DNA from: Streptomyces antibioticus
GTDB lineage: Bacteria; Actinomycetota; Actinomycetes; Streptomycetales; Streptomycetaceae
Assembly: GCF_001514065.1 (NCBI RefSeq)
Contig: NZ_KQ948433.1
Span: 186,398 to 250,397 of the forward strand
Direction of reading: 5' to 3'
Length of the DNA stretch: 64,000 nt
Below, piece by piece: positions 48,155-60,875 of the stretch. The first letter of the stretch is position 1. Every line of letters begins with the position of its first letter. The notes under the pieces are model-generated. The model was not told the DNA's origin. It worked only from the letters and a program-made list of their open reading frames with translations, and did not search any database. A program made the position numbers and the translations under genes.

Positions 48155-51100
48155 ATGAGACACATCCGCTTGTTGGCGACCTTCACCACGGGCGTCGCCC
48201 TCGCCGCGGCAGCAATCACCCCGTCGTTCGCCGACCAGCCGACCCCACCGCGCCCCAGCCCCGTCGCCGCGGCGACCCCGGATGCGGCCACCGTCCACCT
48301 CGTCACCGGTGACCGCGTCACCGTGACCAAGGGCCGGGACGGTCACCAGACGGCGGCGATACGACCGGGCAGCGGGCGCGATGGCATCGTCTTCCACACC
48401 TTCGAACAGGATGGACACCTCACCGTGCTCCCGTCCGACGCCTCCGCACTTGTCTTCCAAGGACGCCTGGACCAAGCCCTGTTCGACGTCACCGCTCTCC
48501 TCGCCCAGGGCTACGACGACGCTCACATCGACGCACTGCCGCTCATCGTCGCCACCCCCGGCGGTACGGCCGGGCGCACCGCCAACCGGCTCTCGACCTT
48601 CGCCGAACCGGGCGCCCCGACAAGGGAGTTGGCCAGCGTCGACGCCCGTGCCGTGCACATCGCGCAGACCGACCTCAGCCGCTTCTGGACCCAGCTGTCA
48701 CCCACCGACACGAAGGCGAAGCAAGCCTCCGTCCCCCGCATCTGGCTCGACGGCCGGGTTCACGCCGTCCTGGACCGCAGCACCGCCCAGATCGGCGCCC
48801 CGACCGTCTGGCAGACCGGTGCGCACGGTGAGGGCGTCAAGGTGGCGATCCTCGACACGGGCGTCGACCAGACCCATCCCGACCTGGCCGGACGCATCAC
48901 CGAGACGGCGAACTTCTCGGACAGCGCCACCACCGACGACCCCTACGGGCACGGCACCCACGTCGCCTCCATCGTGGGCGGCAGCGGAGCGGCCTCCGCC
49001 GGCAGCCGCAAGGGCGTGGCCCCGAAGGCCGACCTCCTCGTCGGCAAGGTGCTCGGCGACAACGGCTCCGGCTCCGATTCCCAGGTCATCGCCGGCATGG
49101 AGTGGGCGGCCGCCCAGGGCGCCAAGGTCATCAACATGAGCCTCGGCTCCGACCAGCCCAGCGATGGCTCCGATGTCATGAGCCAGGCCGTCGACGAGCT
49201 CTCCCGAACCACTTCCGCCCTGTTCGTGATCGCCGCCGGCAACAGCGGCCGGGACGGCATCTCCACGGTCGGCTCCCCCGGTGCAGCCGAGTCGGCGCTC
49301 ACCGTCGGCGCGGTCGACCGGGACGACTCCCTCGCGGACTTCTCCAGCCGCGGCCCCCGGGTCGGCGACGGATCGGTCAAGCCCGACATCACCGCCCCCG
49401 GCGTCGGTATCGTGGCGGCTCGCGCCGCGGGCACCACCGAAGGCGACGTCGTCGACCAGTACTACGTCGCCTACTCCGGCACCTCCATGGCCACCCCCCA
49501 TGTCGCGGGCGCCGCCGCCCTGGTGGCCCAGCGCCACCCTGACTGGACCGGCCGCCAGCTCAAGGACGCACTCGTCAGCACCGCCCACACAGTGACCGGC
49601 CAACTGGTCACCGAGCAGGGTAGCGGCCGGGTCGACGTGCCCGCTGCGGCCCTGGGTCCGATCACGGCGACCGGCACCCTCACCCCCGGCCCGCTCCAGC
49701 TCAGCGACCCGGCCCGCACCTTCGAGGTGACCTACACCAACACCTCCGCCCAGGTCCGCACCCTCAAACTGGTCCCCCACCTCGAGGACTCGGCGGGCCG
49801 CCCCGCACCGACGGACGCCCTGCGCCTCGCGACCACCGTCACCGTCCCCGCCCACGGCACCACCACCATCCCCGTCACCGCAGACCCCGCCAGTGCAGGA
49901 CAGGGCACCTATTACGGCTACATAGCCGCCACCCCCGCCGACTCCACCGGCCCTCCGGTGCACACCACGCTGAGCCTGATCGTGCACGGCCCCGTCCACC
50001 GACTGACGGTAAGGACGTACGACAAGAACGGCACCCGCGTTCCCGCGCAGCCCCTCATCTGGGGCCCGGGAGGCTTCGTCACCTACACCGACCCCGAGCA
50101 CGGCGTCGCCGAGGTCGAGGACGGCACCTACCAGGTCAGCCACACCTCCCTCAGCACCGCCGAGGACGGCCAGGAACTTCGGGAGGTCGTCCTGCCGGAG
50201 GTGAAGGTCAACAAGGACACCACGGTCACCGTGGACGTCCGCAAGACCGTCCCCGTACAGATTCGTACGCCCCGCCCGGCCGAACAGCGCGGAGTGCTCA
50301 GTTACCAGACCTACCGCGAACTCGACGGGCACGCCTTGGTGCAGGGCACCATGTTCTTCGACATCGCCAAGCGCCTCTACGTCAGCCCGACCGCCCAAGT
50401 GCACAACGGCACGTTCGAATTCGCATCCCGCTGGCAACTCGTCGCCCCGCTCCTCCAGTCCCGCGCCTCCGGCCTGCCCGGCCCCATCGACGCCTACTAC
50501 ATGCCGGCATCGCCCCTCTTCGGCGACCGCGGCACCACCCTGCGCGCCGTGAACGCCGGCGACGCCGCCTCCCCCGCACTCGGTGGCCTGCGCGGCCGAC
50601 TCGCCGTCCTCACCGATGACCAGGGCACCGGCACGGACCAAGCCCTGCGGCAGATCGCAGCGGCAGGCGCCAAGGGCGTCCTGCTGGTCCACTTCGACGA
50701 CAACCCCTGGACCCGCTGGACCCCGGAAGGCGACCGCTCACCGCTGCCGGTCGTCCGCGTCGGCGCCACCACAGGCGCGAAGATCCTATCCCGCATCCCC
50801 CGCCACACCACCGATCTCACCTTCCGTGGCACGGCCCGCAGCCCCTACCTGTACGACGTGATGCAGGTGTCCGAACAGCAGATCCCCCAGCACGTCGTGT
50901 ACACCGTCACCGCCCGCGACAGCGCCACAGTGCACACCACATACGCGCACAACGGCGGCAGCGACTGGGCCGCCGAACAGCGCTTCGCCCGCCGCCCGTA
51001 CCAGCAGACCGCCTGGCTCCAGTACAACCGCTACGTCCCCACCGGCTTCACCCGCACCGAATACGTCAGCGCCGGTGACACCAGCTGGCAGCATCTCGTG

Positions 51101-51916
51101 CACCACACCACGGTCTACGACCCCGACCTCCCCCTCGCCCTCGGTATGCGTGACACCCCGCGCACCTACCGGGCGGGTGCCACGGCGAAGGAGACCTGGC
51201 AGGGCGCGGTCGTCCGCCCTTCGATCCCCGCTCACGCCACCGACCCGACCGTGCGCCAAGGTAACGTCATGCGCCTGCGCATACCGGAGTTCACCGACTC
51301 ACAACCCGGCCACTGGTCCCGCTACCTGCCCGACGACGACGGCGGCATCGGTACAAGGAGCACGGAAGCGTCCCACGACACCGTGAGCGCGACCCTCTCC
51401 CGCGATGGCGTGGAGCTCACCGACCTCAACACCGCCTGGACGGACGTCGAGGTGCCGGCTGCTTCCGCCAACTACCGCCTGGAACTGCGCACTTCCCGCA
51501 CCTCCCCCGACTGGGAGTACGCCACCAAGACCGCGACGACCTGGACTTTCCGCTCCTCCCTCACCGACAAGCCGACCGCTCTCCCCCTCCTGCAACTGGA
51601 CTACGACGTACCGGTTGACGCCCACAACACCGTTACGGGCAGGGGCTATTACGGCGTAATAATCACCACCCGCGCCCAGGACGGCGCCTTCGCTCCGCAC
51701 CACACCAAGATGCGCATGGAGATCTCGTACGACGACGGCCGCACCTGGCATACCGCCAACATCCGGGACCGCGGCCACAACACCTTCCAGGCAACCCTCA
51801 ACCGCCCGCACCACGGCGGCGGTACCGCCTACGCGACCGTACGCATCACAGCCCAGGACACCGCGGGCCACGGCATCCAGCAGACGGTCCAGCGAGCCTG
51901 GTCGGTGCGCGGCTGA
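48155..51916 (+). CDS. Secreted S8 (subtilisin-like) serine protease, multidomain
   Basis: 1,253 residues from the ATG behind GGAGAGG. Sec signal MRHIRLLATFTTGVALAAAA, then a propeptide of about 170 residues. Catalytic triad: Asp near 234 in AILDTGVDQTHPDL, His near 266 in YGHGTHVASIVGG, Ser near 444 in SGTSMATPHVAGAAA. The long C-terminal half has beta-rich repeats and a PA-like insert at about 809-879 (GRLAVLTDDQGTGTDQALRQ, then KGVLLVHFDDNPW). Such large exported proteases are common in Streptomyces. The gene also contains a perfect core copy of the parAB-linked palindrome at 51647, encoding YYGVI. Confidence 0.93.
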   Translation: MRHIRLLATFTTGVALAAAAITPSFADQPTPPRPSPVAAATPDAATVHLVTGDRVTVTKGRDGHQTAAIRPGSGRDGIVFHTFEQDGHLTVLPSDASALVFQGRLDQALFDVTALLAQGYDDAHIDALPLIVATPGGTAGRTANRLSTFAEPGAPTRELASVDARAVHIAQTDLSRFWTQLSPTDTKAKQASVPRIWLDGRVHAVLDRSTAQIGAPTVWQTGAHGEGVKVAILDTGVDQTHPDLAGRITETANFSDSATTDDPYGHGTHVASIVGGSGAASAGSRKGVAPKADLLVGKVLGDNGSGSDSQVIAGMEWAAAQGAKVINMSLGSDQPSDGSDVMSQAVDELSRTTSALFVIAAGNSGRDGISTVGSPGAAESALTVGAVDRDDSLADFSSRGPRVGDGSVKPDITAPGVGIVAARAAGTTEGDVVDQYYVAYSGTSMATPHVAGAAALVAQRHPDWTGRQLKDALVSTAHTVTGQLVTEQGSGRVDVPAAALGPITATGTLTPGPLQLSDPARTFEVTYTNTSAQVRTLKLVPHLEDSAGRPAPTDALRLATTVTVPAHGTTTIPVTADPASAGQGTYYGYIAATPADSTGPPVHTTLSLIVHGPVHRLTVRTYDKNGTRVPAQPLIWGPGGFVTYTDPEHGVAEVEDGTYQVSHTSLSTAEDGQELREVVLPEVKVNKDTTVTVDVRKTVPVQIRTPRPAEQRGVLSYQTYRELDGHALVQGTMFFDIAKRLYVSPTAQVHNGTFEFASRWQLVAPLLQSRASGLPGPIDAYYMPASPLFGDRGTTLRAVNAGDAASPALGGLRGRLAVLTDDQGTGTDQALRQIAAAGAKGVLLVHFDDNPWTRWTPEGDRSPLPVVRVGATTGAKILSRIPRHTTDLTFRGTARSPYLYDVMQVSEQQIPQHVVYTVTARDSATVHTTYAHNGGSDWAAEQRFARRPYQQTAWLQYNRYVPTGFTRTEYVSAGDTSWQHLVHHTTVYDPDLPLALGMRDTPRTYRAGATAKETWQGAVVRPSIPAHATDPTVRQGNVMRLRIPEFTDSQPGHWSRYLPDDDGGIGTRSTEASHDTVSATLSRDGVELTDLNTAWTDVEVPAASANYRLELRTSRTSPDWEYATKTATTWTFRSSLTDKPTALPLLQLDYDVPVDAHNTVTGRGYYGVIITTRAQDGAFAPHHTKMRMEISYDDGRTWHTANIRDRGHNTFQATLNRPHHGGGTAYATVRITAQDTAGHGIQQTVQRAWSVRG
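51647..51661. repeat. Centromere-like palindrome, site 1 (inside protease gene)
   Basis: TATTACGGCGTAATA, an exact 15-bp core match to the sites around parAB, lying in coding sequence 255 bp before the protease stop. Confidence 0.65.
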
Positions 51917-51981
51917 TCATCACGGCGTGGAGTACAGTCCTCGAACTGCCCACGCCACTATGAGCGGAGAAGGCCTTCGGG

Positions 51982-52989
51982 ATGCTGGAAGCTGCGGGAA
52001 TCGCACCAGAACTGGAGGCCGTCTACCGACTCCTCGTGACGGCGGGCGGTGCAACGGCCGAAGACATCGCCCAGCGCACGAAACTGGACGGGACCGACAG
52101 CGCGCAGGTACTCGAAGCTCTCGTAAGCCAGGGGCTGGCCACGCACACCGACGGAACACCCCGCTTGTTCCGAGCGGTTCCCCCGGACATCGCGCTCCTC
52201 CCCCGCATCAAGCAGACCGCCGAGGCTCTGGACACCGCACGAGCGGAGGCGGGCCGCCTGTTGGAAACGTACCGCGAGACCGCGCGGCGCCACGACGCCG
52301 GGCAGCTGCTGGAGGTCATCACGGGGGCGGAGGCACTACGCCAGCGGCTCAAGCAGATCCAGGTCAACGCCCGTGAGGAGATGCTCTGGTTCTGCCGTGC
52401 CCAGTACGTGGCCATGCCTTCCGGCAGCAACACGGAGGAGTTCGAGGCCCTCGCCCGTGGCGTCCGTTACCGGGTGCTGTATGAGAAGGCCTTCTTCGAT
52501 GACGAGGGGGCCATCGACAATGTGGCGGCGGGCGTGCGCGCCGGTGAAGTCGCCCGCTCCGTCCCGTGGTTGCCCCTGCGCCTGGCGATAGCCGACCGGT
52601 CCGTGGGCATCTTCCCCTTGGTGCCGGGTGGCCCCGATGGCAGTCCCGGCGAGCCCACCACTGCCCTGGTCAGGGACAGCAGTCTGCTCGACGCCTTGGT
52701 CGCCCTCTTCGAAAGCTATTGGGAGAACGCCGTCCCCCTCCATTTCTCCGCGGAGGGCGAAGACCTGACCACGGACGACTTCATCTCCTCCCACCAGCCT
52801 GCCTTGTCACCTGCCGACAGCAAGTTGCTTTCCCTGCTGGTCGCGGGGGTCGCCGACAAGGCGATCGCCTCCCAGCTGGGGCTCAGCCGACGGACCGTCC
52901 AGCGTCGTATCCAGAGTCTGATGACCCGGGCCGGGGCGGGCACCCGCATGCAACTCGCTTGGCAGGCAGCCCGCCGCGGCTGGCTCTGA
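51982..52989 (+). CDS. LuxR-type HTH regulator with TrmB-like N-terminus
   Basis: 335 residues from the ATG behind AGAAGG. Residues 1-65 read as a TrmB-like winged helix (ELEAVYRLLVTAGGATAEDIAQRTKLD). The middle, 110-260, is a sensing region of the kind found in similar actinomycete regulators. The C-terminal LuxR helix-turn-helix is complete: LSPADSKLLSLLVAGVADKAIASQLGLSRRTVQRRI. It probably controls nearby secreted or secondary-metabolite genes; in Streptomyces this architecture often sits beside large subtilisins like the one upstream. Confidence 0.88.
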   Translation: MLEAAGIAPELEAVYRLLVTAGGATAEDIAQRTKLDGTDSAQVLEALVSQGLATHTDGTPRLFRAVPPDIALLPRIKQTAEALDTARAEAGRLLETYRETARRHDAGQLLEVITGAEALRQRLKQIQVNAREEMLWFCRAQYVAMPSGSNTEEFEALARGVRYRVLYEKAFFDDEGAIDNVAAGVRAGEVARSVPWLPLRLAIADRSVGIFPLVPGGPDGSPGEPTTALVRDSSLLDALVALFESYWENAVPLHFSAEGEDLTTDDFISSHQPALSPADSKLLSLLVAGVADKAIASQLGLSRRTVQRRIQSLMTRAGAGTRMQLAWQAARRGWL

Positions 52990-53051
52990 CGTTCCCTCAA
53001 CTCCCGTTGACTCAGCGGATGCCGCCGTCACACCAGCGACTCCCCAGCGCT

Positions 53052-53324
53052 TCACCACCTGCTCCGTCGTGGACAGGGACCACATCTCGGCACGGTCGAG
53101 AGAGAGAGCAGCCCGTCGAGATGATCGGCCTCGTGCTACACGATCTGCGCCCCCAGTCCGCCATACGTCTCGACGTGCTGCCGGCCGCACTCGTCCTCGT
53201 GGGTCACGCTGATGCCGTCCGGTCGAGCCACGACCGTCTGCCAGCCGGTCACGTTCAGGCATCCCTCGAAGGCCGCCGTAGGCGAGAGACCCACCGCATC
53301 GAGCCTGAACGATGTGAGGTTCAC
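53052..53324 (-). pseudogene. Peptide deformylase remnant with in-frame stop
   Basis: Minus-strand translation gives AAFEGCLNVTGWQTVVARPD, then GAQIV, a TAG stop at 53138-53136, then HEADHLDGLL. These are deformylase motif 2 (EGCLS-type, cysteine metal ligand) and motif 3 (QHExDHLDG), with the stop exactly where motif 3 has glutamine (CAG to TAG). Motif 1 and the N-terminal third are missing. Intact deformylases remove formyl from new proteins; plasmid copies can confer deformylase-inhibitor resistance. This one is dead. Confidence 0.82.
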
Positions 53325-53358
53325 CGATCAGGCACAGGAACAAGGAAGGGCACAGAGC

Positions 53359-53445
53359 GTGGCGGACAAACACGGCATATCAGAAGAACGTGAGCGCGAG
53401 CGCCGCTCAGACGCGACGGGGGCTCAGACCGCAGAATCGTTCTGA
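53359..53445 (+). CDS. Possible 28-residue peptide
   Basis: A GTG-started frame (MADKHGISEERERERRSDAT...) preceded by GGAAGGG. Very polar. It may be a gene remnant or chance; there is no homology to judge by. Confidence 0.25.
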   Translation: MADKHGISEERERERRSDATGAQTAESF

Positions 53446-53571
53446 GCGAAGAATCGAACTGTTCGAATGAAAGTCGCCTGAGTGGCTTTTGCTCCTTTTT
53501 TCGCTTTCCCGAGCAACTCCGATCGGTGGTAGGAAGCCCCACTCCCCCCAGCCGACTCCTGTGAGCGGCAG

Positions 53572-53592
53572 ACCTATTACGGCGTAATAGGT
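53572..53592. repeat. Centromere-like palindrome, site 2
   Basis: ACC-TATTACGGCGTAATA-GGT, a perfect inverted repeat around a central base, 75 bp after the parB stop. Confidence 0.8.
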
Positions 53593-53600
53593 CGAGACAG

Positions 53601-53638
53601 CTGTGGCCGGTACGAGACAGTGCTCGTACCGGCCACAG
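53601..53638 (-). terminator. Strong hairpin after parB
   Basis: A perfect 16-bp stem (CTGTGGCCGGTACGAG) with a 6-nt loop, 29 bp beyond the parB stop. No T tract. Confidence 0.7.
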
Positions 53639-53666
53639 ACGCGGCAGTCTTCGACAGCCAGGAAGC

Positions 53667-54872
53667 TCAGACCCGAGACTCTCTCCGCTGGCTCTGATGC
53701 TCGTTGAGGATGTCGAGCATCTTGTCGAACTCTGTGTCACTCATCTTCTGGATGAGGTGCATGGCGATGAACGCCCCATCGTCATACGGGAGTCGGCGCG
53801 CCGTTCCCGGCTCGGCCGGAGCCTGGTCCGTGTCTCCGCCGACGCTGTCGGCTGCCCGAGGGTCGGGGACGGTCTCCCCAGACTCCACCCGAGCTTCCGT
53901 CTTCACCGTTCGATCAAGCGCCTTCACCGGCGGCGCTGTTGGATCGGCAGTCGGAGGAACGACCTTGGCCACCGGCGGAGTTGGCGCCTTCGCGGGATCT
54001 TCCCAGCCGTTGACTGCCTGCGAGGGGACGGACGGCTCGGGCGCCGCTTCTTCCTCCTCCGTAGCAGAGGCCGAAGCGGGTGCCGCTGCTGTGAGCGTCG
54101 GCGTGGGCTCGGGCGCGACGGCAGGAGTCAGTGAGGGGGCAGGTGTGGGTGCTCGCCGTTCCTCTTCCTTACGCGCCCGCTCCGCCTTGAGTTCCTGGAG
54201 AGCTGCCTCCTGGCGCTCGTGGGGTTCCTTGGCGATGGAGCGTAGGAGCTCAACGGGCTCCTCCCCCACTGCGGCCTGGAGTTCCGGAGTCAGGTTCAGC
54301 AACGCGAGCCGCTGGGACACCCAACCTTGCGACTTGCTCAGCCGCTTGGCCAGCTTCACCTGTGACCCGTGGATGGAAAGCAGTCGCTGGAGTGCTCGAG
54401 CCTCGTCGAGGGGGTCCAGGTCATTACGGTGAATATTCGCGACGAGCGCGGACTCGAGGATGGCGTCGCCGTCGCTGCCTTGCTCGTCGTCAACCATCAC
54501 ATTGAGGTGCGTCAGGCCTGCCTCGCGCGCGGCGGCCAGTCGACTGCTGCCGTCGACGACAACATGAGTGGTGTCGGGTTCGAGGTCGTTGGCCCGGGCG
54601 GGGTTGGCCTTGAGGTAGGCGTCACGGTTCATGACCGTGATGGCCTGCTTCTGGCCGTGTTCCTTGAGGCTGCCCGTGAGCTCAGTCAGGTCGCCGAGGG
54701 AGGTGCGGGGGTTCTCAGGGTTGGGGCTGATGCGTGTGACGGGGAGGCGAGTCGGAGGTGCCACCCCGTCGGTGGGCACACCGGTGGCTGCGCCGATGGC
54801 GGCCCGACGAGCACTGACGGGCCGGGCGCCTCCCCCGAAGCGTCCGGCTCCGAGCTGGTCGGCCTTGCTCAT
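53667..54872 (-). CDS. parB: ParB-family partition protein
   Basis: 401 residues. The N-terminal ParB/Spo0J nuclease-like fold lies at about 45-170 (VTRISPNPENPRTSLGDLTELTGSLKEHG, VVVDGSSRLAAAREAGL, LVANIHRNDLDPLDEARAL), followed by a helix-turn-helix at about 172-194 (VKLAKRLSKSQGWVSQRLALL). A long Pro/Ala/Glu linker (about 230-360) leads to a short C-terminal helix, probably the dimer interface. It should load on centromere sites, most likely the TATTACGSCGTAATA palindromes. Its ATG overlaps the parA stop. Confidence 0.93.
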   Translation of the reverse strand: MSKADQLGAGRFGGGARPVSARRAAIGAATGVPTDGVAPPTRLPVTRISPNPENPRTSLGDLTELTGSLKEHGQKQAITVMNRDAYLKANPARANDLEPDTTHVVVDGSSRLAAAREAGLTHLNVMVDDEQGSDGDAILESALVANIHRNDLDPLDEARALQRLLSIHGSQVKLAKRLSKSQGWVSQRLALLNLTPELQAAVGEEPVELLRSIAKEPHERQEAALQELKAERARKEEERRAPTPAPSLTPAVAPEPTPTLTAAAPASASATEEEEAAPEPSVPSQAVNGWEDPAKAPTPPVAKVVPPTADPTAPPVKALDRTVKTEARVESGETVPDPRAADSVGGDTDQAPAEPGTARRLPYDDGAFIAMHLIQKMSDTEFDKMLDILNEHQSQRRESRV

Positions 54873-56128
54873 GAGATCTCCCGGGCCAGCGCACGCATGG
54901 CGATGGCCTGCTGTGAGGCAGGCGCGTAGCTCAGCAGCGGCTGCTTCATACGGACGGCTTCCTTCTGTTCCTTGAGGTCGTTGATGAGACCTACGACGCG
55001 CGGATCCTTTATGTCGATCCAGCCCTGAAGAGAGGAGGTGGCGATGTAGCCGCGTCGGCCGTCGTAGAGGTTGACGACAATGCCCAAGTAGTCGATGTCG
55101 AGGGCGAGGTCGTTGCGGAGATCCTCTATCTGGTTCGTCAGCAAGTCGTAGGCGTCGGCGGAGCTGTCCTCGGCCTGGACCACGATCAGCGCTCCGGACT
55201 GGCCCGGGCCCTCACTGTCACGACGGCGCCCGTAGTAGGCCGCGGCGTCCATGCTGAGGCCGAGGCTGGGCGGACAGTCGACGATGACTACGTCGTAATC
55301 GGCTTCGAGGGGCAGCAGGGCCCGTTCCAAGGCGGCTTCGCGCGCGCGCACTGCGGACAGACGGACATCGAGGAGGAAGGCGTCATGACATGCGGGCAGC
55401 AAATGCAGCCGTCCGCCGAAGTGGTCATCGTCGATGGAGACGATCAGATCCTTGAGCTCACCCTTCGGGTCGCCGGCCATGTGATTGGTGAGGCTGTCGC
55501 CGTTCATCGCCAGGGGAGCGGCACCGAGTTGATTGGTCAGGTGGCATTGGGGGTCGAAGTCGACCAGCAGGACGCGGAGTCCTGGCCCGGGGAGCTTCTC
55601 CACGTCCAGCGGGTCGGTCTCCACGACGGCCTCATCGGGTTCGTCGGCTCGGAGCGCGGAGGCCAGGGCCTTGGCGACTCGAACCGGGAAGAGCCGGTTG
55701 GAGTCTTCAGAGAGGGCTTCACCGACTCCGGCCGTGATGGCGGTCTTACCGACGCCGCCCTTCTGGTTGCACACGACGATCCGGCGGGTGATGGCAGGCC
55801 GCTGCACATCGGGCGCGGGATGGGTGTCGAGCCAGAGCTGAACGGACTGGGCGAGTCCCTGAATCAGCGATACACGTCGGTCTTCCGCGACCTTGCGGAA
55901 TGCCTCCCACTGTCCTGGCGGCAGGAAGGTGGAGAAAGACTCGGCTCCTGCCGTGTCGATCGTTGTGCTGGCTGACGCAAGTTCGCACCAGGCGGTGATG
56001 CCCTGCTCGACGGCGGTCTGAATCTCGATGCCGAGCTGGGCGGTTCTGATTTTGAGGTTCTGCCGGAGCCATCCCGGCAGCTTGGAGACGACCTTGGCTC
56101 GGTCGCTTGAGGTGGCTGGCATACTCAT
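54869..56128 (-). CDS. parA: ParA-family partition ATPase
   Basis: 419 residues. The deviant Walker A KGGVGKT is at 123-129, followed by LLVDFDPQCHLTNQLG and VIVDCPPSLGLSMDAA. It differs from short ParA proteins by a 115-residue N-terminal extension (LPGWLRQNLKIRTAQLGIEIQTAVEQGITAW), typical of plasmid type Ia ParA that also represses its own promoter. An inverted repeat directly upstream fits such autoregulation. ATP-bound ParA coats DNA and pulls ParB-centromere complexes apart. ATG 56128, or 56122 two codons on. Confidence 0.93.
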   Translation of the reverse strand: MSMPATSSDRAKVVSKLPGWLRQNLKIRTAQLGIEIQTAVEQGITAWCELASASTTIDTAGAESFSTFLPPGQWEAFRKVAEDRRVSLIQGLAQSVQLWLDTHPAPDVQRPAITRRIVVCNQKGGVGKTAITAGVGEALSEDSNRLFPVRVAKALASALRADEPDEAVVETDPLDVEKLPGPGLRVLLVDFDPQCHLTNQLGAAPLAMNGDSLTNHMAGDPKGELKDLIVSIDDDHFGGRLHLLPACHDAFLLDVRLSAVRAREAALERALLPLEADYDVVIVDCPPSLGLSMDAAAYYGRRRDSEGPGQSGALIVVQAEDSSADAYDLLTNQIEDLRNDLALDIDYLGIVVNLYDGRRGYIATSSLQGWIDIKDPRVVGLINDLKEQKEAVRMKQPLLSYAPASQQAIAMRALAREIS

Positions 56129-56137
56129 GGCGCTACC

Positions 56138-56180
56138 TTACTAACGTCGTAGATCATCTGCTGCATCGACACGTTAGTTA
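56138..56180. promoter_or_regulatory. Inverted repeat at the parA promoter
   Basis: TTACTAACGT (56138) and ACGTTAGTTA (56171) are 9/10 complementary with 23 bp between, starting 10 bp before parA. A likely ParA or ParB operator. Confidence 0.55.
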
Positions 56181-56215
56181 GTGCGAGTTGGTGATGCGAG
56201 GAGTCGCCGTGCCCG

Positions 56216-56230
56216 TATTACGGCGTAATA
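56216..56230. repeat. Centromere-like palindrome, site 3
   Basis: TATTACGGCGTAATA upstream of parA, exact core; the flanking bases are not palindromic. Confidence 0.75.
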
Positions 56231-56369
56231 GCGCGACCCGATTCACAGGACACGATGCACGGCACACCGGGACCACTCAGACTCCGCGAAGCCGTCTTGC
56301 TTTACAAGCCCTGGCACGCCGCTGCGCTCATCCTCACGACGAGGGGTCAAGCGTCTGTCGAGCCCTCAG

Positions 56370-56390
56370 ACCTATTACGCCGTAATAGGT
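56370..56390. repeat. Centromere-like palindrome, site 4
   Basis: ACC-TATTACGCCGTAATA-GGT, a perfect copy 6 bp after the stop of the 269-residue gene. Confidence 0.8.
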
Positions 56391-56396
56391 CCCGCC

Positions 56397-57206
56397 CTAC
56401 TCCTGCTGGAGTTCGATCGCTGCGGCCAACACCAGGCGGGCCTCTTCGGTGAGCGCCACAGAACGGGAACTCCGCTGTTCCAGCTTCGTCAGCGAGCGCA
56501 GTGCGGCGTCGAGGTAGCGCTTCAGGCTCACCATTTGCAGTGGGGTCCGGCAGTGGGGGAGGACCGCCTCGATCTCCTCAAGCCAGTAGTCAGCGTCCTC
56601 ATCCCGTACCAGGGCCTCACGTTGTTCCAACAGTCGCGTCGCCACCGGGACCATGAGCGCGTGCCGACGCTGCGCTTCCTCCTGCGCTCTCCGCTCAGCA
56701 GCCTCCGCCAGGGCCAGCCGCCGCTCAGCCTCCAGTACCGCTTCAGGTGTCCGCCTGACGTGATGGCCTCGCGAGGGGGCATCGCTCAGCCCCACCGCCT
56801 TCAGCCGCTTTGCCTTGTTGTACGCAGCACTTGCCGCACCTACGGCCAGCACGGGAGCCAGTTGGATCCACTGCGCTCCTGCAGCCCGTGCGTCATCCAC
56901 GGCCCGTGCCTGATGAGGTTCGATCTGCTCGCGGAGGTACTCCCACAACCGCACCCGCTTGAGCGCTGCGTCACGCTGTACTGCAGGGGGCTGCTTGCTC
57001 AACGCCCGGGCGTGCTTCTCGAGATACAGCAGCGCACCGAACAGTTCCTCGTCGGCCGGCATCAGCTCCACATCCGGGTCTTCTGCCTCCTCATGGAGCT
57101 GCCTCAGTTCTGCGACGAGCGCGCCAGCATCGAGGGTCCCGATTCGCATGGGGGCCCTGACCAGGGGCTTCGTCGGCCTTGTCGAACTCCGGGCACGCTT
57201 CTTCAT
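56397..57206 (-). CDS. Plasmid-core protein of unknown function
   Basis: 269 residues behind GGGACAGGA. Almost entirely helical and charged, with RLALAEAAERRAQEEAQRRHALMV as probable coiled coil. A possible helix-turn-helix (AAGAQWIQLAPVLAVGAASAAYNKAKRLKA) lies in the middle. It sits between palindromic sites 4 and 5 and between parA and the putative origin, and its promoter carries a split parS-like repeat. An accessory DNA-binding factor for replication or partition is plausible; no family recognised. Confidence 0.75.
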   Translation of the reverse strand: MKKRARSSTRPTKPLVRAPMRIGTLDAGALVAELRQLHEEAEDPDVELMPADEELFGALLYLEKHARALSKQPPAVQRDAALKRVRLWEYLREQIEPHQARAVDDARAAGAQWIQLAPVLAVGAASAAYNKAKRLKAVGLSDAPSRGHHVRRTPEAVLEAERRLALAEAAERRAQEEAQRRHALMVPVATRLLEQREALVRDEDADYWLEEIEAVLPHCRTPLQMVSLKRYLDAALRSLTKLEQRSSRSVALTEEARLVLAAAIELQQE

Positions 57207-57229
57207 GACAACATCCTGTCCCGCAGGGG

Positions 57230-57252
57230 CTGTTTCACATTCTGTGAAACAG
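57230..57252. promoter_or_regulatory. Split parS-like inverted repeat
   Basis: CTGTTTCAC, five bases (ATTCT), GTGAAACAG: both halves of the universal parS consensus but pushed apart by 5 bp. It sits 24-46 bp before the 269-residue gene. Confidence 0.55.
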
Positions 57253-57335
57253 GAGCAGTACAGGACAGTCTTCCTGACGGAGCGGCGGCCGGGAGGAAAG
57301 GCCTACTGGCGCGCTGGCGGCGTAGGTGGCTCGGG

Positions 57336-57356
57336 ATCTATTACGGCGTAATAGGT
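57336..57356. repeat. Centromere-like palindrome, site 5
   Basis: ATC-TATTACGGCGTAATA-GGT, one flank mismatch, between the 269-residue gene and the iterons. Confidence 0.8.
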
Positions 57357-57470
57357 CGCGGGGGAGCGGAGGCATCCCCTCCGGTCCAACTCCTGAAGCA
57401 GGGCACGGCCAGTCTCGGATGAAAGCCCGGTCCGCCTCACCCACGGCGTCGTGGTGTCTTCGCAAGCTTC

Positions 57471-58100
57471 TGGTCCCTGCTCCTCCACTCCCCACACCAG
57501 GACAACGAGTGCAGGGACCGAAGAGGTTCACGTTGTTTCGGACCGGAACTCAGCCGGTTTCAGGGACCAGGGTCTGAAACGGGAGACCGAGAGGGACCGG
57601 GGATGCTTCGGTCCCTGGACCTCGGTCCCTGGTGTTTTTGCAGGTCAGACGGCTCTTGATCACTCCAGTAGGGACTGAAGGGACTCAACTCCGCCATTAT
57701 GACGTAGACAAGACATGTATTCGTACACGCGCGCGCATACAAACCCACATATCTAGTACAGCTCATAATGGCCGAGTTGAGTCCCTACAGTCCCTGTTCC
57801 GCTAGACTGTATGCCTCTGACCTGCGACGATGCCCAGGGACCGAAGCGGAGCGCTGTACAGTCCAGCCCCTGCCGCTTCAGTCCCTGGACCCTTTGGTCC
57901 CTCTCAATCCCTCTCGGGGAGGGCAAACGAGGCCTCCGAGCGTTCAGTCCCTGCCGCCCCTAGGGTGGAACCCGACGCGGGACCGAAGGGACCCAAGGGA
58001 CTGAGGAACCTGATAGAAACGGCACGCCGATTGGACAACCTTCCTTTTGAGCAGGTGGGCCTTACACTCTTTTCGCATCAGAGTCCCTTCGGTCCCTGAC
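57471..58100. repeat. Iteron-like cluster of GGGACYGAAG motifs
   Basis: About nineteen GGGAC or GTCCC cores in some 630 bp, many as CAGGGACCGAAG or the complement CTTCRGTCCCTG, on both strands (for example 57512, 57562, 57671, 57834, 57879, 57979, 58083). Repeat density and position directly upstream of replication genes suggest an initiator-binding array. Confidence 0.7.
57667..57798. repeat. 36-bp inverted repeat flanking a 60-bp core
   Basis: Arms at 57667-57702 and 57763-57798 match at 32 of 36 positions when one is reversed. Each arm contains two GGGACT motifs and CCATTATGA at the inner end. The core 57703-57762 is relatively AT-rich and includes an alternating CGTACACGCGCGCGCATAC tract. 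Confidence 0.8.
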
Positions 58101-58164
58101 GAAAACGACAACGCGTCAGGTGTGTGAAGTGATCGGGCAGACAGAAGTGACAAGGACGATTCCT

Positions 58165-59292
58165 GTGCCGCGCGAAGGTGAGGACCGAGACAGTGCTGCG
58201 AGAGTCGCGCCTGCGTCGCCTGCGCGCCCGCAGGCCGTCGCCCGCTGGTGTGCTGCGCAGGGCTGGCCGGTGCACCCCCTCACACCTGGTCGCAAGACGC
58301 CTGTCGGCAACTGCGCTTCCTGCTCGGGGCAGAGGCACGAGCCGGCAACCTGCCCCTGTCCCCCAGCAGGGCGCCCCTGTCACGGCTTTCATGCGGCGAC
58401 CACCGACCCTGAACTCATCGACCGGTGGTGGGGCGACGCCCCGTCCGCAGGAGTGGGTGTCGCATGTGGCCCGGCAGGTCTCGTCGTGATCGACATCGAT
58501 GCCCATCAGGTGTCGGTCGCCGACAGGACCCATCTGCTGCCGGGTATCTCCATCCCTGAACAGGTCGAACTTGCCGGGCTGGCCTCGGGCTTCGACACGC
58601 TGGCCCTTTTGGCGGCTTACCGCGGAGAGCAGGACCCGGCCCTGGACGAAGACACTCTGAGGGTCCGTACTCCGTCCGGCGGCCTGCATGTCTGGTACCG
58701 GAACCCTGAGACCGATACCCGGTACCGCTGTTCGACCGGTTCCGGACGCAACACGGCGCTTGCCTGGCAGGTCGATGTGCGTGCAGACGGGGGCTACATC
58801 GTGGCGCCCGGCACCCGTACGCCCCAGGGTGTCTATCGCGCCGAAGGAACTGCCAGGTATCCCGCCGTAATACCGCGGTGGCTACGAAGCGAGCTGCGCC
58901 GCACAGGACATGTCATCGAGCCGCGCCCCTCGAAGGCCCTGGCCTCCGAGTACCTGGCAACTGCCTTGTCTCCCGCGACAGCAGACACGGTCGGGAGCGG
59001 ACCGAAGCGAACGGCCTCCGCTCATCAGATCATCGACCCTCTGATCGCTCAGGTCGCCCAGTGTGCTGCCGCTTCCGAGGGCACGGGCTTCTCGGAGAAG
59101 CTCAACAGGGCCGCCTACACGGCCGGAGGACTGGTCGGTGCGGGCCATCTGGAGCACGCCGCCATTCGCGACCGACTTGTCCGTGTCGCTCACTATGCCC
59201 GCCCTTGGCAGCAGTCCAGGAATGAAAAGATCGTTGACGACGCCCTTGCCGTAGGGTCCGTCCGCCCTCTTCACCTCAAAGGACGTCCATGA
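58165..59292 (+). CDS. Bifunctional DNA primase/polymerase (prim-pol)
   Basis: 375 residues from GTG 58165 behind AAGGA; in-frame GTGs at 58120 and 58129 are alternatives. The prim-pol catalytic acids are in LVVIDIDAH (Asp110, Asp112). It carries a cysteine-rich insert (CASC, TCPCP, PCHGFH) that probably binds zinc, as seen in actinobacterial plasmid and phage prim-pols. Later motifs include RVRTPSGGLHVWY and GYIVAPGTRT. It should make primers at the adjacent origin. The stop overlaps the helicase start (ATGA). Confidence 0.9.
   Translation: MPREGEDRDSAARVAPASPARPQAVARWCAAQGWPVHPLTPGRKTPVGNCASCSGQRHEPATCPCPPAGRPCHGFHAATTDPELIDRWWGDAPSAGVGVACGPAGLVVIDIDAHQVSVADRTHLLPGISIPEQVELAGLASGFDTLALLAAYRGEQDPALDEDTLRVRTPSGGLHVWYRNPETDTRYRCSTGSGRNTALAWQVDVRADGGYIVAPGTRTPQGVYRAEGTARYPAVIPRWLRSELRRTGHVIEPRPSKALASEYLATALSPATADTVGSGPKRTASAHQIIDPLIAQVAQCAAASEGTGFSEKLNRAAYTAGGLVGAGHLEHAAIRDRLVRVAHYARPWQQSRNEKIVDDALAVGSVRPLHLKGRP
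58858..58872. repeat. Degenerate centromere-like palindrome (site 6)
   Basis: TATCCCGCCGTAATA, 13 of 15 positions, flanked by GG and CC, inside the prim-pol gene. May be chance or a decayed site. Confidence 0.3.
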
Positions 59293-60875
59293 GCAGCAGT
59301 GCCGAAGGCTCCCCGCGTTTTGATCCGCAGGCTGCCGCTCAGCAGATGCTCGACCTTCAGTCGGCGGAACTGATCCCCGGCACTGCCCGGCTCCCGGCAC
59401 AGGGCGTCACCGGTTCCTCGGTCGCCACGTTCCCGCAGACCGCCCCAGTGTCTCAGGTCGTCGGCCCTGGCGCCGGTCTCGGTGTTCCCTCCGTGCTGCC
59501 CCCCTCTCTCTCGGACCGGGGCAACGCGCGGCTCTTCGTTCAGATGCACCGGGACCAGTTCCGCCATGTCGAGGGCCTGGGCTGGTTCTCATGGGACGGC
59601 TACCGGTGGAAGCGCGGCGGAGGGGAGAAGGCCGCACTGTGGGCCGCGGGGGAGATGGCTGAGGACATGCCCCTCAGCGACCCGCGTGGTGTGTTCAGCA
59701 ACCGTGAGCTCGCCCAGCACAAGCGGCGTACTCTGTCGACCACTGGCCTCAAAGCCCTTCTGACGCAGGCAAAGGCATCCCCCGACATCTCCGTCGACCC
59801 CGACCGGCTCGACGGCGACCCTTATGCCCTGTGCACCCCCGAGGGGGTTGTCGATCTCACCAACGGGCAACTGCGCAAGGCCGACCCGACCCGTGACTTC
59901 CACTCCCGGGCCACCAGCGTCGCCCCCCAGGACGTGGACACGCCTCGCTGGCACCGCTTCCTCGCCGACACCTTCGGGGATGACGACGAGGGCCAGGAGA
60001 TGATCGACTTCCTGCACCTGCTGCTCGGTTACTCGATCACGGGCGACGTGGGCGCTCAGGTGCTGCCCTTTCTCCATGGTGAGGGCAAGAACGGCAAGTC
60101 CGTGCTGCTCGACATCATGATCCAGATCCTCGGTGACTACGCCGACGCGGCCCCGCCGGGCTTCTTGATGGACCGGGGTGCGTTCTCGGAGCACTCCACG
60201 GAGCTGACCGAACTGCACGGGCGCCGCCTGGTGGTGTGCAGCGAGCTCAAGCCGAACGACAAGTTCGACGAGGCCCGCGTCCGTCTCCTGACGGGCGGCG
60301 ACAAGATCAAGGCCCGCCGGATGCGCCAGGACTACTTCTCGTTCACTCCCACCCATCACCTGTGGCTGCTGGGCAATCACCGTCCGGAGGTCTCGACCGG
60401 CGGCTTCGCGTTCTGGCGTCGTATCCGGCTGCTGCCCTTCACCCGCACGGTCCCGGCGCACCGCAGGATCGACAACCTCGCTTTCGAACTCGTGCGGGAC
60501 GAGGGTCCGGGCATCCTGCATTGGCTGATCCAGGGTGCACAGCGGTACCTGCGCACCAGAGACCCTCTGGAGGGCCCGGACCGGGTCCGTATCGCCACCA
60601 CGGCGTACGCCACCACCGAGGACCACATCGGCCGCTTCCTCGCCGAGTGCTGCACGCGGGACTGCGATCCCGGCAAGGACCTGCGGGTCGAACAGGGGCT
60701 GCTCTACGCGGAGTACAGCTCGTGGTGCAACGCGGGGGAGGGGATCCGGCCGGCGACTCCGCGAGCGTTCGCGAACCGCGTCCGCCAGGAGGTCGGGGTG
60801 GCCTCGCCGAACGACATGATCAAGTCGAACGGCCGTAAGTATTACCCCGGTATCGGCTTGCTGGAGCAGGCATGA
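59289..60875 (+). CDS. D5/P4-type SF3 replicative helicase
   Basis: 528 residues. N-terminal D5-like region 60-250 (FRHVEGLGWFSWDGYRW, PLSDPRGVF). SF3 helicase core: Walker A HGEGKNGKSVLLDIM near 265, Walker B RLVVCSELKPND, motif C HLWLLGNHRPEV, and an arginine finger region FWRRIRLLPFTRTVP. The C-terminal winged helix ends at the natural stop. It unwinds the origin together with the coupled prim-pol; together they replace a classical Rep protein. Family members drive phage and plasmid replication. Confidence 0.93.
   Translation: MSSSAEGSPRFDPQAAAQQMLDLQSAELIPGTARLPAQGVTGSSVATFPQTAPVSQVVGPGAGLGVPSVLPPSLSDRGNARLFVQMHRDQFRHVEGLGWFSWDGYRWKRGGGEKAALWAAGEMAEDMPLSDPRGVFSNRELAQHKRRTLSTTGLKALLTQAKASPDISVDPDRLDGDPYALCTPEGVVDLTNGQLRKADPTRDFHSRATSVAPQDVDTPRWHRFLADTFGDDDEGQEMIDFLHLLLGYSITGDVGAQVLPFLHGEGKNGKSVLLDIMIQILGDYADAAPPGFLMDRGAFSEHSTELTELHGRRLVVCSELKPNDKFDEARVRLLTGGDKIKARRMRQDYFSFTPTHHLWLLGNHRPEVSTGGFAFWRRIRLLPFTRTVPAHRRIDNLAFELVRDEGPGILHWLIQGAQRYLRTRDPLEGPDRVRIATTAYATTEDHIGRFLAECCTRDCDPGKDLRVEQGLLYAEYSSWCNAGEGIRPATPRAFANRVRQEVGVASPNDMIKSNGRKYYPGIGLLEQA

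Follow-up and report, generated by a model that had tools for sequence, protein, structure and literature searches.

The described partition system closest to the one considered here is ParABS1 of the Streptomyces coelicolor plasmid SCP1, in which a 13-base-pair (bp) inverted repeat, parS1, is present in three copies around parAB1 (McPhillips et al. 2026, PMC13245405); the portion of that paper drawn on here names residues N54, R56, G108, S109, S110 and R111 of its ParB1. For Noc, the excerpted account of Jalal et al. (2020, PMC7383237) pairs two residues with bases of the half-site, Q173 with A1 and R201 with C6, and the contact between residue 201 and base 6 is thus known already. Here we analyse a stretch of 64,000 nucleotides from Streptomyces antibioticus (assembly GCF_001514065.1, contig NZ_KQ948433.1, positions 186,398 to 250,397 of the forward strand), referred to as the window, in which five copies of one palindromic word, TATTACGSCGTAATA, lie around adjacent parA and parB genes. 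We propose, with a probability of roughly 0.93, that these palindromes serve as the centromere (parS) for a partition system of the SCP1 ParABS1 kind, with a type-I helix-turn-helix (HTH) ParB, and we have high confidence that the adjacent ParB would be their reader.

The initial annotation had reported five exact 15-bp cores, and a pattern search of the window recovered all of them at the same places: exact copies of TATTACGSCGTAATA start at 51647, 53575, 56216, 56373 and 57339, and near-copies at 58858 (two mismatches) and 49910 (three mismatches), the latter absent from the initial annotation. The earlier claim that the repetition is not due to chance was borne out, seven copies with up to three mismatches being observed in the window against 0.04 expected from 100 shuffles. 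Across the whole genome (10,145,887 bases, 29 contigs) only five places come within one mismatch of the word, all of them on contig C12 (424,694 bp), of which they span at most 5.7 kilobases (kb); because all five lie together there, the word is not scattered evenly over the replicon or the genome. The exact 15-mer is present in 39 of 392 Streptomyces genomes and a reversed control pattern in none (0/392). A chance origin of the five copies is rejected by the shuffles, the restriction within the genome and the control pattern.

The core of the word is 13 bp long (ATTACGNCGTAAT). Perfect symmetry extends over 23 bp at 53575 and 56373, 17 bp at 57339 and 15 bp at 51647 and 56216, and the 57339 copy has one mismatched pair within a 23-bp palindrome; two cores, those at 53575 and 56373, are therefore perfect over 21 bp, where the initial annotation had counted three. 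The 13/15 copy noted at 58858 is present with its two mismatches and is not a palindrome, its symmetry breaking two bases off centre, and at 49910 it breaks one base off centre; because both near-copies have so little palindromic symmetry, they were rejected as probably not parS sites.

Site 1 (51647..51661, 15 bp) lies within an S8 protease gene, where it is read as the codons TAT TAC GGC GTA ATA, three of which are rare in that gene (TAT for 2 of 35 tyrosines, GTA for 5 of 109 valines and ATA for 4 of 39 isoleucines). In a relative, L047, blastn (E 1e-5) recovers just a 58-bp piece of the S8 protease gene, the one surrounding site 1, suggesting that the remainder of the gene was lost around a retained site. 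Site 2 (53571..53593), directly past the 3′ end of parB, is the perfect 23-bp palindrome GACCTATTACGGCGTAATAGGTC; site 3 (56216..56230, 15 bp) has its centre 95 bp upstream of parA; site 4 (56369..56391) is the perfect 23-bp palindrome GACCTATTACGCCGTAATAGGTC; and site 5 (57339..57353) is a perfect 17-bp palindrome with a near-palindromic 23-bp surround.

The parB gene (53667..54872, minus strand) encodes a protein with a ParB_N-like N domain, the motifs NPR (54-56) and GSSR (108-111) and a ParB HTH, and matches Pfam HTH_ParB (1.8e-9), TIGR00180 (5.5e-23) and, under the cut-off, ParB_N (4e-5). It carries N54, R56, G108, S109, S110 and R111 at numbers identical to those listed for SCP1 ParB1. 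Alignments to solved ParB/Noc chains place its specificity residues Q182, R188, N193, E208 and R211 at Caulobacter positions 173, 179, 184, 201 and 204, and the Caulobacter numbers are used below. Adjoining it is parA (54869..56128, minus strand), encoding a ParA-type ATPase (Pfam AAA_31 5.5e-22; CbiA 8.6e-15 from residue 117). About 115 residues precede the nucleotide-binding match and are suspected to form a DNA-binding domain.

Conservation of the sites as DNA was followed in 74 ParB1-like loci, defined by the recognition helix SQGW (L109 among them repeats L054). In 57 of the 74 the 200 bp upstream of parA contain a core site. At these 57 sites conservation averages 0.95 over the 13 core positions and 0.44 and 0.40 over the two flanks, and the core is free (0.44) at its central base. 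Common descent of the entire stretch was rejected as the cause of the repeated word, because the flanks have diverged while the core is kept.

The word also travels with a type of ParB. Among the 38 other genomes with the 15-mer, a ParB relative is found at E≤1e-20 in 36 and at E<1e-70 in 33, whereas in sampled genomes lacking the 15-mer kin at E<1e-70 occur in 7 of 116 (and relatives in 10/38 at E≤1e-20 and in 33/78 at E≤1e-15); each of these seven strong-kin loci has between 3 and 11 copies of the 13-bp core. Of 33 stretches drawn from 15-mer places among the matches listed, 20 contain ParA or ParB kin and 13 contain none, the share being 10 of 15 for stretches with at least two exact copies. 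Scanning genome contigs for ParB yielded 46 loci, 31 of which hold ATTACGNCGTAAT at least three times, and the ParB1-like partition type with this core is thus common in the genus Streptomyces. In the chromosome record of Streptomyces seoulensis (L054/L109) a plasmid-type parB has six exact sites nearby, as if a plasmid had integrated.

The sites are distinct from those of the chromosomal system in the same genome, as the initial annotation had held. Only two ParB matches at E≤1e-5 are found in this genome, the window ParB and a protein at C5:539224 with 38% identity. The exact chromosomal parS, GTTTCACGTGAAAC, has 15 copies, all on contig C5, where 12 stand no more than 45 kb from the C5:539224 ParB, and none is found in the window at up to two mismatches; the reading of the window sites as chromosomal parS was therefore rejected.

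That ParB rather than a neighbouring gene would read the sites rests mainly on covariation between protein and DNA. For 128 non-redundant Streptomyces ParB relatives (28-100% identity to the window ParB, near-identical proteins removed beforehand), repeated palindromes were sought within 5 kb by a fixed rule, which detected a motif in 85 of 128 real regions and in none of 128 shuffled regions or 15 control stretches; relaxed to two copies, it gave a repeated palindrome at 109 of the 128 loci. At these 109, residue 201 and base 6 combine as E-G (43), D-G (39), A-G (8), S-G (1), R-C (13) and K-C (5): D, E, A or S goes with G6 in 91/91 loci and K or R with C6 in 18/18, with no exceptions. Likewise, Q173 is accompanied by A1 in 77/77 loci, and P, R, A, K, S, D, H or G at 173 in 0/32. 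The window locus (Q173, E201, half-site ATTACG) obeys both patterns.

Three close pairs of loci differ at base 6 alone, namely L068 (D, ATTACG) and L060 (K, ATTACC), L145 (E, TTAACG) and L180 (K, TTAACC), and L147 (S, AAAACG) and L146 (K, AAAACC); the K-type loci L053, L060 and L062 form one clade, and the combination of K/R with C6 appears to have arisen several times. In a distant R173 group with TTGTCC sites, whose residue 201 is aligned across an insertion, base 1 is T, where the chromosomal ParB with R173 reads G1, and in this point the group departs from a simple form of the published rule. The idea of covariation arose from L053, L060 and L062 and the distant L079 and L080, for which the test was not blind. 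Later distant loci were picked as ParB matches (20 regions, then all 37 among the matches listed), the motifs of the 20 regions having been seen before the calling rules were fixed. L102 was set by hand to ATTACG, because its top motif, ATTGCG, adjoins a second ParB, and one unrelated palindrome was dropped in L177; the base-6 counts are unaffected by either. Taken as a recognition code, in which residue 201 sets base 6 (G for acidic or small residues, C for K or R) and Q173 accompanies A1, irrespective of the other letters of the site and of whether the palindrome is odd or even, the pattern is probable, with appreciable room for doubt. Beyond PMC7383237, the literature searched, which left most subscription journals outside, yielded neither the 15-mer nor a residue-base rule for plasmid ParBs; the five papers there that contain any of four versions of the word are on other subjects, as judged by title.

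The earlier suggestion that the palindromes are likely ParB loading sites thus gains support from the SCP1 ParB1 precedent, from the co-occurrence of site and ParB type and from the covariation over 109 loci. By homology with SCP1 ParB1 and other ParBs, binding, cytidine triphosphate (CTP) use, spreading and segregation are predicted. A ParB dimer would sit on each palindrome, each half-site being taken by one of its HTH domains, with Q182 (position 173) as the expected reader of A1 and E208 (201) expected to pair with G6 beside the central base. CTP binding would then close the clamp, which would leave the site by sliding and spread across several kilobases on either side; ParA would move the loaded region.

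Several observations weigh against this reading. Strong ParB kin (E<1e-70) are lacking in 5 of the 38 positive genomes, and two of them, G007 and G317 with one 15-mer each, have no ParB kin at E≤1e-20. No repeated palindrome was obtained at 19 of the 128 ParB loci, even with two copies allowed, and the changes on the tree are few (five for residue 201 and base 6, two for residue 173 and base 1). Finally, 12 of the 74 ParB1-like loci (L109, the repeat of L054, has no parA match) lack two sites within 5 kb of parA, and eight of these have no site at all in the 8.6-21 kb examined.

In several of the genomes to which these 12 loci belong the sites cluster elsewhere, at a distance of tens of kb or on a different contig, for the most part next to Prim-Pol/D5 genes and the gene of a 269-amino-acid protein described below. 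Searches of 15 whole genomes whose locus had few sites or none found the core in 11. Such detached clusters are the main observation against a simple unit of parAB plus sites. G003 and G111 have their sites on the contig that carries parB, at a distance of 53-66 kb, and nine of the site clusters examined stand in stretches without a whole parAB; two of the nine may not be truly detached, because the stretch of L131 stops inside a parA match and that of L106 at a contig end. A comparison of open reading frames among eight stretches with detached clusters showed DUF6009 to be the most widely shared gene and did not show the 269-amino-acid gene, which a direct search then located at most clusters. 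The cluster at L088:10026-10257 consists of four core sites in a row, spaced 71-74 bp apart, with parB about 58 kb off on the same contig. Elsewhere, at L141:10278-10719, twelve ATCACG-type palindromes with an exact spacing of 39 bp lie just downstream of the matched part of a related parB.

ParB-type proteins can autoregulate, and one could suppose that of the five sites only site 3 works, serving parAB as an autoregulatory operator, and that the others are relics. The site just upstream of parA is indeed the most constant one (57/74 loci). This is nevertheless improbable as a full account, in that it is sites 2 and 4, rather than site 3, that form perfect 23-bp palindromes, and site 1 persists in coding sequence with rare codons and in the 58-bp piece of L047. 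A loading site may also double as an operator, and an operator role for site 3 does not exclude the partition reading.

Because of the detached clusters, the 269-amino-acid protein and the replication module stay alive as minor rivals, although both are less likely readers than ParB. The gene of the former (56397..57206, minus strand) lies between sites 4 and 5, and profiles assign it no function, with no match in Pfam (E up to 0.1), NCBIfam or PHROG (E up to 0.01). Were it a copy-number or gene regulator with the palindromes as its operators, their nearness to parAB would be incidental. The gene is flanked by sites in the window and in many relatives and is present at six of the nine clusters without a whole parAB (L098, L106 and L128-L131; not L088, L101 or L113); it is a frequent companion of the sites, yet not required for them. 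Only 29 of the 74 ParB1-like loci have it in the examined stretch, 35 loci that lack it have two or more sites no further than 5 kb from parA, and among the 43 loci matching the gene, there is no site closer than 2.5 kb to the full-length copies in L118, L160 and L072/L157. An operator role for this protein would also leave unexplained why the site letters track ParB residues, and we regard it as slightly more improbable still than site 3 acting alone. Least likely of all is that the palindromes are origin elements of the Prim-Pol/D5 replication module and not of partition, since, although Prim-Pol or D5 is found at 7/9 of the clusters without a whole parAB (L088 having neither these nor the 269-amino-acid gene) and the clusters of L101 and L113 adjoin Prim-Pol/D5/DUF6009 with parB 53-66 kb off on the same contig, in 27 of the 74 ParB1-like loci two or more sites stand within 5 kb of parA in an examined stretch that lacks Prim-Pol/D5, the origin-like repeats of the window are different words from the palindromes, and covariation with ParB is left without an account.

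Those repeats, dispersed in direct and inverted orientation and of the GGGACCGAAGGGACT / AGTCCCTTCGGTCCC type, occupy 57472..58098, immediately before the Prim-Pol gene, and are a likely replication origin. The linked replication module, identified by profile matches, consists of the Prim-Pol gene (58120-59292, plus strand) and a D5/P4-type primase-helicase gene (59289-60875, plus strand). Because of the partition and replication genes around the sites, contig C12 appears to be a plasmid. A promoter and terminator scan of 56100-57400 found none. Upstream of the 269-amino-acid gene, at 57232-57250, GTTTCACATTCTGTGAAAC comprises two chromosomal parS half-sites 5 bp apart; it is also present in L035, L036, L037 and L128, not in the other 21 relatives checked, and is perhaps an operator.

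With the palindromes read as parS, a large Streptomyces replicon gains a probable centromere, and the covariation points to a way in which related ParBs may distinguish centromeres that differ by one base, a question raised by the two systems of SCP1. If the code is true, the parB sequence of a large Streptomyces plasmid would allow its centromere and its partition incompatibility group to be predicted, even where the sites are tens of kb away from parAB. A second ParB with the motif GHRR stands beside copies of ATTGCGNCGCAAT, which differs from ATTACG by one base per half, in the same stretch as the ATTACG system at L102:1422-3892 and L132:17699-19245. The residue list in the excerpted PMC13245405 implies GHRR for SCP1 ParB2, and these loci would fit dual partition systems as on SCP1, although the numbers and spacing of the second ParB differ from those of SCP1 ParB2 (N48 and G106 against N55 and G109).

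Compared with other described systems, KorB and its operator OB of RK2 (PMC11790492, cited from the part used here) share an odd inverted repeat with a central G (TTTAGCGGCTAAA in the printed OB oligonucleotide) and a reader of the ParB family. In contrast, the KorB domain scores 16.4 bits in the window ParB against a cut-off of 22.3, the site letters are different, and KorB, as that part describes it, doubles as a repressor; a literature search for KorB specificity residues found none. Noc and NBS, as presented in the excerpted PMC7383237, share Q173 with A1 and a basic residue at 179 (R in the window ParB), as well as C6 with those window relatives that have K or R at 201. They differ in that the window has E201 (E208) with G6 rather than R201 with C6, a site that is odd, 13 bp long and built around one central base, and a gene that adjoins parA. 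The chromosomal ParB and its parS (GTTTCACGTGAAAC) belong to the same protein family and presumably use the same clamp mechanism, with R173 and G201 (same excerpt) in place of the Q and E of the window ParB. The initial annotation had called the centromere unfamiliar, which is only partly right, as its kind is known from the related 13-bp parS mapped on SCP1 in 2026. To judge from the portion of PMC13245405 used here, SCP1 ParABS1 shares with the window a type-I HTH ParB, several 13-bp inverted repeats around parAB that are unlike chromosomal parS, and a setting on a large plasmid, with three sites against five in the window, a likeness that lies in length, arrangement and ParB residues. Beside SCP1 ParABS1 the system is ordinary in kind, and the residue-base rule is the part of it worth attention.

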